From a virus, in IMG/VR virus record IMGVR_UViG_3300010885_002447, positions 1 through 36,657 of that record: DNA of 36,657 nucleotides; one strand, written 5' to 3'. Below, piece by piece: positions 18,278 to 35,538 of the stretch. Within the stretch, counting starts at the first letter, position 1; each line of letters begins with the position of its first letter. The notes below the pieces were generated by a model, which was not told the origin of the DNA, ran no database searches, and saw only the letters and a list, made by a program, of their open reading frames with translations. A program made the position numbers and the translations under genes.

Positions 18278-20380
18278 ATGACTGATATTACTTTAATTAC
18301 TAATCAAGCAAATCAAGTTACTGCAATCGTAGATCAAGGCATTATTGGTCCTACTGGTCCTGCAGGTTCTGCAGGCGGTCCAACTGGTCCTATAGGTGCA
18401 ACTGGTCCAACAGGTAGTTCAGGTCCTACTGGTCCTGCTAGTGGTCCTACAGGTCCAACAGGGGCTATTGGAAACGCAGGTCCGACAGGGGCTACAGGTC
18501 CTACAGGAAGTCAAGGAATACAGGGAAACATTGGACCAACAGGTTCTCAAGGTGTTCAAGGTATCCAAGGTGTTCAAGGAATTGAAGGTCCAACAGGTCC
18601 ACAGGGAAATATTGGACCACAAGGTCCTACAGGCAATGCAGGGGCTACAGGTCCATCAGGAACTGGTCCTACAGGTCCAACTGGCTCAACTGGTGCAACA
18701 GGTTCAGCATCTACTATTGCAGGACCTACTGGTCCGACAGGACAACAGGGCAATCAAGGCGATCATGGTCCAACAGGTCCACAGGGTGTACAAGGAATAC
18801 AGGGTGAGCAGGGAATACAAGGTCCTACAGGGCAACAAGGTATTCAAGGAATACAGGGCAATGTTGGCGATATAGGTCCAACTGGTCCACAAGGTCAACA
18901 AGGTAATTCTATTACTGGTCCTACAGGTGCTACAGGTTCTGCAAGCACAGTTGCAGGTCCTACTGGTCCTACTGGTCAACAAGGAATACAAGGTGCTGAA
19001 GGACCAACAGGACCACAAGGAATTGAAGGACCACAAGGCTTTGTTGGACCAACAGGTGCTCAAGGAAATGCAGGACCTACGGGTAGTGTCGGACCTACTG
19101 GATCACAAGGCATACAAGGACCAACAGGAAGCGTTGGTGCTACAGGTCCAACAGGTGCTCAAGGCAATCCGGGTGCAGGTGGCACGATTGCTCATTGGGG
19201 ATCATTTTGGTCAACACAAAATCAAGTAGCAGGAAATACAACTACTGCTTATGCGATTACATTAAATCAAAGCGATCCTGATAACAATGGAGTAGCGTTA
19301 AGTGCTAACTCACGATTGACTGTAAATCAAACAGGCGTTTATAACATTCAGTTTTCTGCACAAACAGTTAATACTGCAAATGCTATTGTTGAAACATCAT
19401 TTTGGATAAGAAAAAATAATGTTGATATTGCTGACAGTAGAGGTGCAGTAGCAGTTCCGGGCAAAGCAGGTTCAGTAAATGGACAAATTATTGCCGCTTG
19501 GAACTATGTAATGACATTGACTGCAAATGATTACATTGAATTCTATTGGCAAACAGAAAACACAAATGTAAGTTTAGAAGTTTTGCCTGCAGGTACAACC
19601 CCAACAACTCCTGTATCGCCAAGTATGATTGCGACTATTACGCAAGTAACCTATACGCAAAATGGTCCAACAGGTAGCCAAGGTCCAACAGGACCACAAG
19701 GCATTACAGGTGCAACAGGAAACCAAGGAAGCGTTGGACCTACAGGACCTACAGGAACTCAGGGTGAACAAGGTTTTGTTGGACCTACAGGTCCGCAGGG
19801 AATACAAGGTATTCAAGGCGAACAAGGCTTACAAGGAATTCAAGGACCTACAGGTTCGCAGGGCAATACAGGACCGACAGGTGCAACTGGTGCAAACTCA
19901 ACTGTTGCAGGACCAACAGGACCAACAGGAACGCAAGGTATTCAGGGCGATCATGGACCTACTGGACCACAAGGTGTTCAGGGCATTCAAGGCGAACAAG
20001 GAATTGCAGGACCTACTGGACCACAAGGCATACAAGGTATCCAAGGAAACACAGGAGATACAGGTGCTCAAGGACCTACTGGACCGCAAGGAATTCAAGG
20101 TGTTACAGGACCTACTGGTGCTAATTCAACAGTAGCAGGACCAACTGGTCCACAAGGAGTTGCAGGTCCTACAGGAACTCAAGGTGCAGTCGGACCTACA
20201 GGACCACAAGGCATTCAGGGTGTGCAAGGCATTGAAGGACCGACTGGACCGCAAGGTGTGCAGGGTATTCAGGGAATACAGGGTGTTACTGGTCCGACTG
20301 GTGCTACTGGTCCGACAGGGGCTACTGGTGTAGCGGAATCACAAGGATTTGTAGCATTTAGTTCTAATGGTGGATTTTAA
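18278..20380 (+). CDS. Collagen-like tail fibre protein with central C1q/TNF-like domain
   Basis: A 700-residue protein. Residues 1-23 are a short polar head ([20 protein letters not shown]), followed by uninterrupted Gly-X-Y triplets (mostly GPT, GPQ, GIQ) from about 24 to 298. A globular beta domain spans about 299-460: [44 protein letters not shown], a layout like C1q/TNF jelly rolls. A second triplet block covers about 463-686, and the end is [14 protein letters not shown]. Collagen-like stretches trimerise into rods, so this is probably a side fibre. The start follows AAGG. Confidence 0.88.
18347..19174 (+). repeat. Collagen-coding repeat block 1
   Basis: About 275 residues of Gly-X-Y encoded by degenerate 9- and 18-base units such as GGTCCTACAGGTCCA and GGAATACAGGGT variants. 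Codon choice varies between units, yet many 12-18-base segments recur, which would favour recombination or slippage and length variation between related phages. Confidence 0.85.
19664..20332 (+). repeat. Collagen-coding repeat block 2
   Basis: About 223 residues of Gly-X-Y, using the same units as block 1, separated from it by the globular domain. The second block often uses GGACCTACA/GGACCACAA spelling where the first uses GGTCCTACT/GGTCCAACA, so the blocks have diverged rather than being a fresh duplication. Confidence 0.85.
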
Positions 20381-29299: not shown

Positions 29300-30112
29300 A
29301 TGATGAACGGCAAATTCGGAGTGGAGTTAGAGTGTTTCAATGTAGAGCGATCAGTAGTAGTTGGTGCTTTAAATATGGCAGGTTTTCGTGCAACACAATC
29401 AGAATACAGAGGCGACAATTATTCAGTATGGCAAATTAAACAAGATGGCTCAATTCAAGGTCGCAATGCTTTTGAAGTAGTTAGCCCAATTCTGCAAGGT
29501 GAAGATGGCATTCAAGAAGTTCGCAAAGTTTGCGAGATCCTGACTGCCCTCGGTGCAGAAGTTAATACATCAACAGGATTCCATGTTCATCACGATGCAA
29601 GCAATTGGGGTGTCAAAGAGTTCCGCAACTTAATGAAACGCTTTGTAAAATTTGAATCAGGCATGGATGCTATCCAACCTGCAAGCCGTAGAAATAGCAA
29701 CAATCGTTATATTGGTAGCTTATATTCGGGCTACTCAAATACAGACATCAACCGCCAAAAGCAATTATTCGGTGCGATTGACGAGTGCCGTTCAGTTCGC
29801 CAACTAGCACAGTTATTCGGATCACGCTACTACAAGCTCAATATGCAATGTTTCTTCAGAACTAATACTGTTGAGTTTCGCCATCATAGTGGCACAGTAG
29901 ATGCAGTCAAAGTAGAGAACTACATACGCTTGACATACGCAATGGTTCAAGATGCTCAAGATCATACCGCAGTCAAAGCATTTTCCGAGCAGTTTACTGC
30001 TAAGGAAGCTTTAGATACGATGTTAGCAGGTCTAGTTCGCAGAGCAAGACTTACTCAAGATGTAGCTAAGTTCTACAAAGCCCGATCAGTTCAATTACAA
30101 GGAGTTCAATAA
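29300..30112 (+). CDS. Amidoligase (COOH-NH2 ligase, Amidoligase_2 family)
   Basis: A 270-residue glutamine synthetase-like ligase. Conserved elements appear in order: GVELE (residues 7-11), VWQIKQDGSI (43-52), FEVVSPIL (58-65), GFHVHHDAS (93-101) and NTVEFRHHSGT (189-199), which supply the ATP-metal site of the family. These ligases join a free amino group to a carboxylate, making amide or isopeptide bonds on peptides, proteins or metabolites. It starts an operon with three small genes and a gamma-glutamylcyclotransferase-like gene, the partner known for related ligases. The substrate in this phage is unknown. A second ATG three bases later is possible. Confidence 0.88.
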   Translation: MMNGKFGVELECFNVERSVVVGALNMAGFRATQSEYRGDNYSVWQIKQDGSIQGRNAFEVVSPILQGEDGIQEVRKVCEILTALGAEVNTSTGFHVHHDASNWGVKEFRNLMKRFVKFESGMDAIQPASRRNSNNRYIGSLYSGYSNTDINRQKQLFGAIDECRSVRQLAQLFGSRYYKLNMQCFFRTNTVEFRHHSGTVDAVKVENYIRLTYAMVQDAQDHTAVKAFSEQFTAKEALDTMLAGLVRRARLTQDVAKFYKARSVQLQGVQ

Positions 30113-30401: not shown

Positions 30402-30563
30402 ATGGAATTAGACCTAGTAACTGCAAACAAACAAATGACCGAAATTCTTGAATTGTTTAAAAATTCAAATACAGGCGATTTTGTAATGCATGAACAATTT
30501 TACAGAGGTATGACTGACAAAGCTTTGCAAATTGTAGAACTATATAAAAGGAAAGGACAATAA
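30402..30563 (+). CDS. 53-residue helical protein, unknown
   Basis: A small protein with a strong extended ribosome binding site and its own promoter candidate. The sequence MELDLVTANKQMTEILELFK, then DFVMHEQFYRGMTDKALQIV, predicts two helices. It ends in a TAATG overlap with the cyclotransferase, so the two are co-translated. It could be a substrate carrier or regulator for the cassette; no family recognised. Confidence 0.65.
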   Translation: MELDLVTANKQMTEILELFKNSNTGDFVMHEQFYRGMTDKALQIVELYKRKGQ

Positions 30564-31009
30564 TGTATTACGCATCATACGGCAGTAACCTTAACCACGA
30601 GCAGATGTCTAGGCGATGCCCAAAAGCTAAGTTTATTGGCATAGGGCAACTACTAAACTACAGGCTTGTTTTTAGAGGTGTAGCAGACATTGAATTTAGC
30701 AAGGGTAGCGTAGTACCCATCGGCTTGTGGAAGATCACTAAGGAGTGCTTACAAGCCTTAGATATGTATGAGGGCTATCCCCATCATTACGGCAGAGGTA
30801 TTACAGAAATCAAGATGAAGCATAAATATAAGAAAGCATTTATATATTTTATGAACTATGACGGATATTCTGCCCCTACTAAAAGCTACTATGATGCAAT
30901 CCACCAAGGGTATCTAGACTGCAAACTAAATACCTTATTTTTGGAAGAAGCATGGAAATTTACTAGAGATAATCTTGACGAAAGGAAATGTGATGAAGCT
31001 CTTTTTTGA
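30563..31009 (+). CDS. Gamma-glutamylcyclotransferase (AIG2-like)
   Basis: A 148-residue protein. The family's substrate loop YASYGSNL is at residues 3-10, and the catalytic glutamate is probably Glu70 in ALDMYEGYPHHYGR (compare 'LD..EG....Y.R'). These enzymes release gamma-glutamyl or related groups as cyclic 5-oxoproline. In the butirosin pathway an amidoligase (BtrJ) adds gamma-glutamate to a carrier and a cyclotransferase (BtrG) removes it, and the same pairing is encoded here within one kilobase. It overlaps the next gene by 17 bases. Confidence 0.88.
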   Translation: MYYASYGSNLNHEQMSRRCPKAKFIGIGQLLNYRLVFRGVADIEFSKGSVVPIGLWKITKECLQALDMYEGYPHHYGRGITEIKMKHKYKKAFIYFMNYDGYSAPTKSYYDAIHQGYLDCKLNTLFLEEAWKFTRDNLDERKCDEALF

Positions 31010-32174: not shown

Positions 32175-32435
32175 ATGTCTAAAGCAGTAACTAAAATTCA
32201 AGCATTTTTTAAAAGCAATCCAAGTCCTTTTACTCTTAAATCAATTAAAGAAGCACATCCTGAATTAAAGCCTAGCGAAATATCAATGGCTCTTTGTTAC
32301 CTAAAAAAACAAAGGTATGTGTCAAGGCAACCTGTTGCAAGCAATACAATAAAAGGTCGCAAGCAAGTATGGTCTTATACTTATTATTCTGAAAAATTGC
32401 CAAAAGAGAATGCAGATGAAAATAGAACAGATTGA
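32175..32435 (+). CDS. Small winged-helix DNA-binding protein
   Basis: An 86-residue basic protein. A helix-turn-helix is suggested by PFTLKSIKEAHPELKPSEIS and MALCYLKKQRYVSRQPVASN, with a wing following (KGRKQVWSYTY). It is the first gene after a promoter with a large dyad, the arrangement expected for an autoregulating repressor, and heads the operon that carries ParB, Bug and IbrA/B. It overlaps the ParB-like gene by about 20 bases. Confidence 0.65.
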   Translation: MSKAVTKIQAFFKSNPSPFTLKSIKEAHPELKPSEISMALCYLKKQRYVSRQPVASNTIKGRKQVWSYTYYSEKLPKENADENRTD

Positions 32436-33036
32436 TATTGACAAGTTAATTCCTTATGCAAACAACGCAAGGGAACATAGCGACAAACAGATAGCTGAGA
32501 TAGCAGGAAGCATTAGAGCATTTGGCTTTAACAACCCTATCTTGATTGATAAAAATAATACTGTTATAGCAGGACATGGCAGATTGTTTGCAGGCATGAA
32601 ACTAGAACTAAAGAAAGTTCCATGTATTAGGCTAGAACATTTATCTGAAACTGAAAAGCAAGCATACATACTGGCAGACAATAAGATTGCCCTTAATTCT
32701 ACTTGGAATTTAAATATGCTAGATTTTGAATTAAAGTCTTTGCAGGAAAAAGAAGTAGATTTGGCACTATTAGGATTTAGTGCAGAAGATTTATCAAGGC
32801 TTGCAGATGATAAAGATCAGCAACGATTAGATAATATGGTGGCTGATGCAGGCATAGACGATGATGTAGATACATCAGACAGACCTGATACAGAAATGTT
32901 TCCCCTATCTATTATGCTAGAGCATGAACAAAGGGATACTGTGTTTAAAGCAATCCGTAAAGCTAAAGAAGAAAACGATCTTGAAAATAGCGGTCAGGCA
33001 ATTTGGTTAATTTGTAAGGAGTATTTAGATGCTTAA
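32416..33036 (+). CDS. ParB-like nuclease-domain protein
   Basis: A protein of 206 residues if begun at the ATG at 32416 (or 208 from 32410). The ParB N-terminal domain is evident: QIDIDKLIPYANNAREHSDK, IAEIAGSIRAFGFNNPILID and TVIAGHGRLFAGMKL with the GHGR motif at 53-56, then LSETEKQAYILADNKIA. In many phages this domain precedes a DNA methyltransferase, but here the C-terminal half (about 105-206) is an acidic helical region without methyltransferase motifs. ParB-type domains use CTP or act as nucleases. Overlaps the Bug gene by eight bases. Confidence 0.85.
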   Translation: MKIEQIDIDKLIPYANNAREHSDKQIAEIAGSIRAFGFNNPILIDKNNTVIAGHGRLFAGMKLELKKVPCIRLEHLSETEKQAYILADNKIALNSTWNLNMLDFELKSLQEKEVDLALLGFSAEDLSRLADDKDQQRLDNMVADAGIDDDVDTSDRPDTEMFPLSIMLEHEQRDTVFKAIRKAKEENDLENSGQAIWLICKEYLDA

Positions 33037-33871
33037 ATTTTTATCTGCACTTGTATTATGTTTTACTGTTAATGCACAAGCACAACCAATAAAGTTAGTA
33101 GTTCCATATCCTGTAGGCGGTGGAACAGATATTCTTACTCGTTACTTTGAGGCTAAGTTAAAAGATAAAGTATATATAGAGAATAAAGGTGGTGCATCAG
33201 GAATGATTGGTACAGACCTTGTAGTAAAGGCAAAGCCTGATGGCAAGACATTGTTAATGGGTCATGTAACACCTAACGGCATTGATCCTGCACACTTTAT
33301 GACTCCGCAATCTAATAGCAACAGAGATTTAGAACCCATTGTATTAGTTGCAACTGCTAGAGCATTATTAGTAACCAATAAAGAATTTCCTGTTAATACA
33401 TTAGATGAATTTAAAGCTTATGCAAAAAAGAATGTAGTCATTTACGCATCTGATGGTATTGGCTCTGTAGCTGATTTAAAGATGGCTAGAACATTAAAAG
33501 GATTTGAAACTATACATAGCCCATACAAAGGTGGAGCACCTGCACTACAGTCTTTGCTTACAAAAGAAACACAGATTCTTTATTCTCCTGAACCTGTAGC
33601 TATGTCATGGATTAAAGGCGACAAAATTAAAGTAATACCAACACCTAGCGAAGATGATTTATGGTGGGGATTGTTTGCACCTATAGGCACAGATCCTAAA
33701 GTATTAGATTACTGGCATAAAGAGTTTACTAATATTCTTAATGAGCCTAGCACTAAAGAATGGATGGCTAATCAAGGCTATAACATAAGGTTTATGAGCA
33801 GAGATCAGTTTGCTATCTTTGTCAAAAAAGAACAAGACAAATACAGGAGATTTGATGGGAAGAATCCTTAA
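33029..33871 (+). CDS. Bug-family (TctC-like) periplasmic solute-binding protein
   Basis: A 280-residue precursor. The signal peptide MLKFLSALVLCFTVNAQA ends at an AQA site (cleavage after residue 18). The mature protein starts QPIKLVVPYPVGGGTDILTR, the classic Bug start, and carries ENKGGASGMIGTDLVVKAKPDG, HSPYKGGAPALQSL and APIGTDPKVLDYWHKEF. These proteins capture carboxylates for tripartite tricarboxylate transporters and are very numerous in Burkholderiales. It is slightly shorter than most (about 300-325) but seems intact. AAGGAG precedes it, and it overlaps its neighbours, so it is part of the phage operon. A host-derived metabolic gene is likely. Confidence 0.9.
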   Translation: MLKFLSALVLCFTVNAQAQPIKLVVPYPVGGGTDILTRYFEAKLKDKVYIENKGGASGMIGTDLVVKAKPDGKTLLMGHVTPNGIDPAHFMTPQSNSNRDLEPIVLVATARALLVTNKEFPVNTLDEFKAYAKKNVVIYASDGIGSVADLKMARTLKGFETIHSPYKGGAPALQSLLTKETQILYSPEPVAMSWIKGDKIKVIPTPSEDDLWWGLFAPIGTDPKVLDYWHKEFTNILNEPSTKEWMANQGYNIRFMSRDQFAIFVKKEQDKYRRFDGKNP

Positions 33872-35042
33872 AAAAGAAGTTGTTGAAGATGTAAATGTCT
33901 ATGACGCATCAATAAAAAGGTTTAGATATTTATTTGACAACTTTGACAAAGTAGTTGTGTCATTTAGTGGTGGCAAAGACTCAACAGTTTGTCTAAACCT
34001 TGCATTAGAAGTAGCAAGAGAAAAAAATAAATTACCGCTTGATGTTTACTTTTGGGATGAGGAAGCAATACATCCTGAAACCATTGACTATGTAGAAAGA
34101 GTCAGGGTAAACCCTGAAGTAAGGCTTAAATGGTTGTGCATACCAATCAGGCATAGAAACGCTTGTAGCAGAAAAGAGCCTTACTGGCAATGTTGGGATC
34201 CTGCAAAAAAAGATGTTTGGGTTAGGGATATGCCTGACAATCCTAATGTTGTTACTGAGTTAAAAGAGTTTAAGTGGGGCGATAGCGTTCCTGATATTGC
34301 TCACTATGTGTATGGTCCTGAACATGGCACAGTAGCCGATGTAAGGGGCATCAGGGCAGATGAATCGCTTAGGCGGTATCGTAGCGTAGCCCAAAAAACA
34401 AAAGATAATTGGATAGGTGGACCTCGCAATGGTCATAATTACCCAGTAAGCCCTATTTATGATTGGACTACATTTGATGTATGGACTGCACCTAGATTGT
34501 TTGGATGGGATTACAACACAAGCTATGACATTATGAGTATGATGGGCGTGTCGCCTAGTTCACAACGAGTATGTCCGCCTTATGGTGAAGAACCGCTAGG
34601 TGGCTTATGGATTTATGCACAAGGTTGGCCTCAGATGTGGCACAAAATGATTGGTCGTGTGCATGGGGCATCTACTGCAGGCAGATATGCAAATACTGAA
34701 TTATACGGATTTGGTAAGCTACAACTGCCACAAGGTATGACATGGCGAGATTGGACTTATGCGTTATTAGAGCTTTATCCTAAAGACCTAAAAGCTAAGG
34801 TAGCACAGAATATTGTTGCGTTAATTAATCAACACAAATCTAAGACTAACAGACCTATACATGAAACAGAGCCTGATTTAATGACAGGGCTTAGTTGGAA
34901 ATTCTTAGCTATGATTGCTAATCGTGGCGATTTAAAAGAAAGAAGAAAAGGGCAGGTCAATGCTAATGCAAATTTAGCTAGACAAAAATTAGGTTTAGAA
35001 ATGGCAGATATAGAGGAAGCGGACTATGGCTCAAGATACTAA
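33855..35042 (+). CDS. PAPS reductase-like protein (IbrA-like)
   Basis: About 395 residues from the ATG at 33855, which has AGGAGA upstream; the frame is open 15 codons further back, inside the Bug gene. The PP-loop SFSGGKDSTVCLNLA (motif 38-43) marks an adenylate/PAPS-type ATP pyrophosphatase, followed by DVYFWDEEAIHPETIDYV, a Cys-containing segment (WLCIPIRHRNACSRKEPYWQ), and GIRADESLRRYRSV. The 'CPPYGEEPLGGLW' and 'GRVHGASTAGRY' motifs agree with IbrA/DUF3440 proteins. Such genes lie beside a ParB-like gene (IbrB), as here. In E. coli this pair affects expression of immunoglobulin-binding proteins; the phage function is unknown. Confidence 0.88.
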   Translation: MGRILKKEVVEDVNVYDASIKRFRYLFDNFDKVVVSFSGGKDSTVCLNLALEVAREKNKLPLDVYFWDEEAIHPETIDYVERVRVNPEVRLKWLCIPIRHRNACSRKEPYWQCWDPAKKDVWVRDMPDNPNVVTELKEFKWGDSVPDIAHYVYGPEHGTVADVRGIRADESLRRYRSVAQKTKDNWIGGPRNGHNYPVSPIYDWTTFDVWTAPRLFGWDYNTSYDIMSMMGVSPSSQRVCPPYGEEPLGGLWIYAQGWPQMWHKMIGRVHGASTAGRYANTELYGFGKLQLPQGMTWRDWTYALLELYPKDLKAKVAQNIVALINQHKSKTNRPIHETEPDLMTGLSWKFLAMIANRGDLKERRKGQVNANANLARQKLGLEMADIEEADYGSRY

Positions 35043-35538
35043 AAAACAACCAATCAGTAATGTAGTATGGAAAAATAGGGCAGAATTAAAGCCTAATGAT
35101 TACAACCCTAACAAAGTCGCTCCTCCTGAACTGGAATTATTAGTTACTTCTATTATTGAGGATGGGTGGACTCAACCTATTGTCATACTTCCCGACAATA
35201 CTATTGTTGATGGTTTTCATCGATATACAGTCAGCGGACAGAAAAAATTAATGGAACGATTTAATGGCATGGTTCCGACTGTTACTGTTGATATTGATCC
35301 TATACATAGACAAATGTCTACTATTCGACACAATAGAGCAAGAGGCACTCATGGCATATTGCCTATGGCATCTATTGTTCGTAATATTGTTAATGATGGT
35401 GTATCTAAAGAAGAAATTCAATCACGGCTAGGCATGGAAGATGAAGAAATTGACCGCCTAATAGATCGTGCAGGTATGCCTGAGCAAGCAGGAAGAAAAC
35501 AAGCAGAATTTGGTAGTTCTTGGAAACCTAAAGGTTAA
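35026..35538 (+). CDS. ParB-like protein (IbrB-like)
   Basis: A 170-residue protein overlapping the PAPS reductase-like gene by 17 bases. The ParB N-terminal domain is seen in ELKPNDYNPNKVAPPELELL, SIIEDGWTQPIVIL and TIVDGFHRYTV (the DGFHR motif at 62-66, variant of GHGR). Next come RHNRARGTHGILPMASIVRN, ending with a helical part and QAEFGSSWKPKG. This matches the IbrB partner of IbrA-type proteins. It is distinct from the other ParB-like gene 2.6 kb upstream. Confidence 0.85.
   Translation: MAQDTKKQPISNVVWKNRAELKPNDYNPNKVAPPELELLVTSIIEDGWTQPIVILPDNTIVDGFHRYTVSGQKKLMERFNGMVPTVTVDIDPIHRQMSTIRHNRARGTHGILPMASIVRNIVNDGVSKEEIQSRLGMEDEEIDRLIDRAGMPEQAGRKQAEFGSSWKPKG

Follow-up and report, generated by a model that had tools for sequence, protein, structure and literature searches.

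A Bug/TctC-type solute-binding protein gene in the variable slot of a phage ParB-X-IbrA-ParB cassette

The closest described relatives of the gene reported here are those of the TTT solute-binding proteins—TphC/TBP, BugD, BugE, AdpC and MatC—which its product resembles in the PF03401 domain, the two-domain fold, a probable leader, and the P-x-x-x-G-G-x-x-D and PYKGG loops. The proximal carboxylate loop of these proteins has the motif P-F/Y-x-x-G-G-x-x-D, and TphC residues T155, S156, N197 and T242, or their counterparts in related proteins, contribute to holding the distal carboxylate or the water molecules associated with it (PMC8556258); bacterial Bug genes lie mostly apart from tctAB (PMC5812351). 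The neighboring genes resemble IbrA/IbrB, a PAPS-reductase-like and a ParB-like protein described as a 'co-activator of prophage gene expression', in sharing PF01507, DUF3440 and the ParB-like partner. The Escherichia coli pair ybdNM combines these domains too, PAPS-reductase/DUF3440 plus ParB-like, and its position by citrate genes under CitR (PMC9068703) hints weakly at a connection with carboxylates. On the viral side, phage-encoded Bug folds are represented by uncultured Caudovirales entries named 'PBP2_Bug_TTT' or 'Bordetella uptake protein' (BFVD A0A6J5T9X7 and others), and a TTT component is represented by a tctA domain match on a SUP05-phage contig (PMC4164917). No report of a phage TctC was found in the literature searched; a glacier-ice paper (PMC8290583) was set aside as such a report, the match being a primer sequence.

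We analyzed a stretch of 36,657 nucleotides (the window; IMG/VR virus record IMGVR_UViG_3300010885_002447) from a freshwater virus of bacteria, which contains a four-gene cassette in the order ParBa-Bug-IbrA-ParBb. The main new point is that Bug fills the variable slot, X, of a ParB-X-IbrA-ParB cassette. Unlike the TTT solute-binding proteins, the phage Bug lacks a segment of about 20 aa (R..PdvPT..E.G), has the distal contacts of TphC replaced, and is encoded in a ParB/IbrA cassette rather than beside tctAB or catabolic genes. The cassette differs from IbrA/IbrB in adding ParBa and a variable small-molecule protein, and the best IbrA matches among named phages share only about 31-36% identity with the window IbrA. 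The Caudovirales entries are 12-18% identical to the window Bug, whereas the SUP05-phage tctA is a membrane subunit, marine, recognized by a protein-domain match only and without a binding protein.

The Bug open reading frame spans exactly 33029-33871 on the plus strand, with an ATG start, 280 codons and no internal stops. Its product matches Pfam PF03401 TctC at 2.9e-38 (132.4 bits, against a curated cut-off of 27), and PDB sequence matches are to TBP/TphC (terephthalate-binding protein), BugD, BugE, AdpC and MatC. An AlphaFold2 model made with 56 related sequences (pLDDT 90.7, pTM 0.86) has the two-domain fold of the TTT solute-binding proteins as judged by Foldseek, with a TM score of 0.86 and an rmsd of 2.0 Å to the closed, terephthalate-bound TBP (8hka), and TM scores of 0.85 to BugE, 0.85 to AdpC, 0.83 to BugD and 0.82 to MatC. 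None of the PHROG families matches Bug, which is thus not among the phage families described there. The first 18 aa (33029..33082, plus strand) are a probable Sec signal peptide: the leader, MLKFLSALVLCFTVNAQA followed by Q, was read by eye from the sequence and is hydrophobic with an AQA end. A hydrophobic leader is also found in the phage relatives, in most cases with an AxA or VxA end, and Bug is probably secreted. Comparison with the Bug of contig L002 gives dN 0.012 and dS 0.29; the dN/dS of about 0.04 (NG86, relied on for this close pair only) is that of purifying selection.

The genes on either side overlap Bug. ParBa, the first cassette gene, is a ParB-like gene at 32410..33036 (plus strand; start perhaps 32416; Pfam ParB_N 3.5e-6; PHROG 620 ParB-like 1.5e-51) whose stop overlaps the Bug start by 8 nt. 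The sequence AAGGAG at 33016..33021, on the same strand and within parBa, is the likely ribosome-binding site of Bug, and the remaining Bug cassettes, like the majority of freshwater cassettes with a bicupin instead, have a similar AAGGA at equal spacing. IbrA (33855..35042, plus strand), a PAPS-reductase-like PP-loop protein with DUF3440 (Pfam PF01507 5.5e-14, DUF3440 3.6e-17; PHROG 2302 1.1e-86), has its ATG 17 nt inside the Bug gene and in turn overlaps by 17 nt the last cassette gene, ParBb (35026..35538, plus strand; PHROG 2159 4.7e-61), an IbrB-like ParB. The window thus has the composition of an IbrA/IbrB pair, a PAPS-reductase-like protein with DUF3440 and then a ParB-like protein. An earlier note on this DNA had described an intact, secreted Bug in a phage operon, overlapping ParB upstream and IbrA downstream; the reading frame, Pfam match, fold, leader as read by eye and gene overlaps bear this out, with secretion probable, and the leader was not lost in related phages.

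The same ParBa-Bug-IbrA-ParBb order was found in six further IMG/VR contigs, which are independent assemblies and make five lineages with the window. L001 and L002 are near-identical; the other four—L091 (= L008, 38 kb), L093 (= L009, 39 kb), and L092 and L094 (39 kb, with another backbone)—were found using alignments as query, and their Bugs are 60-64% identical to that of the window. Each of the six cassettes measured has the 8-nt parBa/Bug joint. The neighborhood search proposed in the earlier note therefore succeeded, and it extends to a more distant, 4.7-kb contig, L277, which has the order ParB-ParBa-Bug-IbrA-ParBb-HNH and identities to the window of 43% for Bug, 47% for IbrA and 61% for ParBb. 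A 67-kb contig, L298, encodes a Bug 47% identical to that of the window and with the same pocket residues; here (L298:287-6384) Bug overlaps by 14 nt a gene for a 374-aa protein with a PP-loop motif (SGGVDST), in which Pfam found no match, and radical-SAM genes flank the two, which suggests that this Bug type also belongs to a second, different biosynthetic cassette. The presence of Bug beside IbrA in L277 and beside the SGGVDST protein in L298 indicates that this type of Bug has long travelled with PP-loop proteins.

A search of IMG/VR with IbrA provided 56 IbrA contigs, which were classified by Pfam Cupin_2, SSF and TctC for what stands between ParBa and IbrA. There are 36 with a bicupin, nine with a sodium:solute symporter (SSF), six with Bug, two with none of these, and three that are truncated, although the sample was seeded with these classes and includes some near-copies, so that the counts are not frequencies. 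No two of these three occupants of X occur together in any of the 56 contigs; a bicupin is missing from the seven Bug-cassette records, and TctC from 40 records whose IbrA cassette is of another kind. The bicupins, mostly 225-271 aa, show no leader in their sequence, and in freshwater cassettes they share with Bug an identical 8-nt start joint after parBa. A bicupin model (pLDDT 92) resembles in fold the oxalate decarboxylase and ureidoglycine-aminohydrolase-like (DR1152) bicupins; a single reaction could not be taken from the fold search, whose matches are to bicupins in general. In L263 the gene order differs: the symporter still accompanies IbrA and the ParBs but stands before ParBa. IbrA-IbrB pairs with no X occur in other phages. 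The symporters of L195-L203, L246-L253 and L263 are full-length members of their phage IbrA cassettes. Since the slot also holds a bicupin or a symporter, the function of Bug is to be sought in the cassette, and the earlier note's reading of the gene by itself is no longer sufficient.

Identity of the phage Bug to its nearest bacterial counterparts, most of which are Burkholderiales proteins, does not exceed 37%. In the tree the phage Bugs form one clade (support 100/100) whose stem measures 1.72 changes per site and for which no bacterial sister was resolved or supported; the L277 Bug joins this clade at 100/100, and the L298 Bug, outside the tree sampling, is grouped with it in the clade alignment. 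A profile of the phage clade scores 405-507 bits on its own members, which it contains. With six candidates scored in each of 399 Burkholderiales genomes, it reaches no more than 244 bits there, and the best-scoring bacterial candidates are without the phage pocket residues. At 33638..33661 (plus strand) the alignment shows a clade-specific loss of about 20 aa: the R..lPdvPT..E.G segment has 8 residues in the freshwater phage Bugs versus 28-30 in all 49 bacterial Bugs aligned, its R, T and E are invariant in a 17-row bacterial alignment, and it is retained in L277 and L298. With its own clade, no resolved bacterial sister and this loss in the freshwater members, the gene reads by sequence as a long-kept part of a viral cassette and not as a recent host capture. 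The tree does not put it inside or next to one host lineage, where a recently acquired host gene or strict auxiliary metabolic gene would fall, so the phylogeny that was to locate the host lineage named none, and 'host-derived' does not apply in a recent sense.

The TphC contacts reported in PMC8556258 were mapped onto Bug by alignment. The proximal loop is present as PYPVGGGTD, with P28, G31 and D34 invariant across the phage clade, and the PYKGG loop is also kept, but T155, S156, N197 and T242 of TphC correspond to V147, A148, P187 and L211. Ligand-contact residues, whose loss had been named as grounds for doubt, are thus kept at the proximal end and replaced at the distal one. The ligand is consequently probably atypical, in that one carboxylate would be bound in the customary way while the opposite end differs, and an ordinary di- or tricarboxylate is unlikely. 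Judged from the alignment, the pocket is near-invariant in the phage clade and distinct from the bacterial one: 19 of the 23 pocket positions mapped are invariant versus 48 of the 231 other mature positions (p = 4e-9; seven-row clade alignment, with the distant L277 and L298 included). Some of this conservation extends to Bugs in general, with D142, H79, S186-P187 and LWW as exceptions; D142, L211 and W213 occur in none of 49 bacterial Bugs, and H79 and P187 in one each.

No end repeats were found in the window. By terminase, the nearest named phage is Methylophilaceae phage P19250A (69%), in which no TctC was found. At least 599 IMG/VR stretches have a related terminase; among 50 such records searched, many of them fragments, TctC is present in two, both times in the ParB/IbrA cassette. 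Bug is therefore dispensable for, and not a general trait of, this phage group. RuMP methylotrophs are the host kind of P19250A and may not be the host of this phage; TctA and TctC are both absent from all eight RuMP-pathway genomes among 300 Burkholderiales, whereas TctA is present in all nine Bug-rich Burkholderiales genomes, and the genomes examined from Polynucleobacter and Limnohabitans encode 35-67 Bugs as well as TctA. A search for the host through prophage copies of IbrA gave one, uninformative, match in the 300 Burkholderiales genomes. The host may thus lack TctAB, and loss of the 20-aa segment could abolish docking to the permease. Raised carboxylate uptake by the host, as put forward in the earlier note, requires host TctAB, and the eight methylotroph genomes without TctA and TctC make such a simple boost the weaker proposition.

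We propose that Bug is the small-molecule-supply member of the phage cassette ParBa-X-IbrA-ParBb, a reading to which we assign a probability of roughly 0.42; we infer that X supplies or handles a small molecule for the IbrA/ParB machinery. Bug would be exported beyond the inner membrane, bind a metabolite with a carboxylate group by means of its proximal loops, YPVGGGTD and PYKGG, together with the re-made distal pocket (H79, D142, S186-P187, LWW), and hand it to a host TctAB permease. The IbrA family includes ATP-pyrophosphatase-type enzymes, and cytoplasmic IbrA, with a PP loop of this type, would activate or use the metabolite, while the two ParB-like proteins would act with IbrA on DNA, for modification, for counter-defence or to control genes. 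Where the host differs, a symporter would import the molecule, or a bicupin bind or convert it in the cell. This supply model draws on the collinear cassette with its end overlaps, the mutually exclusive X, the conserved pocket, the Bug-IbrA link kept over deep divergence in L277, the Bug/PP-loop overlap in L298, the symporter with IbrA in L263, and the TctA of all nine Bug-bearing Burkholderiales; against it stand a host possibly without TctAB, the 48 of 50 terminase relatives without Bug, and the IbrA-IbrB pairs without X. A broader version, which we hold as speculative and would not expect to survive whole, is that the cassette is a small-molecule-dependent phage system with interchangeable supply modules suited to the host—a binding protein that borrows a host permease, the phage's own symporter, or an intracellular bicupin—in which IbrA carries out a DNA- or nucleotide-directed reaction guided by the ParB-like proteins.

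Other explanations read parts of the same evidence differently. Bug could be a plain auxiliary metabolic gene, surplus protein raising host uptake of carboxylates as a carbon or nitrogen source through the host's own TctAB, with IbrA and the ParBs unrelated. The kept fold, leader and proximal loop agree with this, as do the Bug genes (35-67) and TctA of freshwater Burkholderiales and the Bugs that other large freshwater phages carry outside such a cassette; we nevertheless find it rather doubtful, because the place of Bug in the ParB/IbrA cassette is fixed over deep divergence and exchanged with a cytoplasmic-looking bicupin, one extra Bug among dozens would bring small gain, and the RuMP methylotrophs have neither TctA nor TctC. 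If instead the parBa-ibrA gap merely tolerates insertion of unrelated accessory genes, three unrelated families in one slot and the many terminase relatives without Bug would be explained. Such a cargo hotspot seems unlikely, given that the families number only three, all handle small molecules and have conserved start and stop joints, that in L298 Bug overlaps a further gene with a PP-loop motif, and that the L263 symporter stays with IbrA in a different order.

A role outside the inner membrane other than transport—as a periplasmic decoy, as a signal to a Bug-responsive sensor, or in superinfection exclusion of other phages' entry—would fit probable secretion, loss of a segment that is conserved in bacterial Bugs and perhaps faces the permease, and the signaling suspected for Bug proteins (PMC5812351). 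The strongly conserved pocket, which suggests that ligand binding matters, and the absence of a leader from the bicupin replacements make it a long shot. Contamination or a chimeric assembly deserved consideration, as Bug genes abound in co-occurring bacteria and GenBank MT836965 (L006, 'Bacteriophage sp.'), a candidate second phage Bug, reads as a bacterial fragment with a tctCBA-like operon and Rnf-like and sugar-kinase-like genes, in which no phage genes were seen. Independent contigs in one gene order (seven with the window, at 60-99% identity), plus L277, rule it out for all practical purposes; the earlier note had judged simple host contamination excluded from the overlaps.

Phage 'PAPS reductase' genes are often viewed as sulfur-metabolism auxiliary genes; that a phage IbrA sits with two ParB-like genes and one exchangeable partner, whether binding protein, transporter or bicupin, suggests use of a small molecule. 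The Bug pocket can be assayed directly and offers a route to the identity of that molecule. If the supply reading is true, the virus would itself make just the soluble component for uptake and rely on its host for the remainder of the system.

Other Bug genes were observed on large phage contigs (L275, L276, L282 and L285-L290; IMG/VR, 47-345 kb). These keep an R..PT-like segment, and those included in the tree do not group with the window clade; L276 has tandem Bugs, and in L282, L285, L287 and L290 Bug adjoins a protein family of about 390 aa ('FYxVG'). In some IbrA contigs a second PAPS-reductase-like gene with an SGGKD motif precedes ibrA (L245:2718-3488, L259:7-612, L261:2205-2993), and L199 and L200 have an additional SGGKDG gene 3' of ParBb. 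Upstream of the window cassette are an Amidoligase_2 gene (29300-30112) and a gamma-glutamyl cyclotransferase-like gene (30563-31009), both kept in Bug phages L091-L093; the chemistry of these two gene products also concerns carboxylates. Among the tail genes, positions 18278-20380 encode a long protein with collagen-like GPTGPQG repeats.
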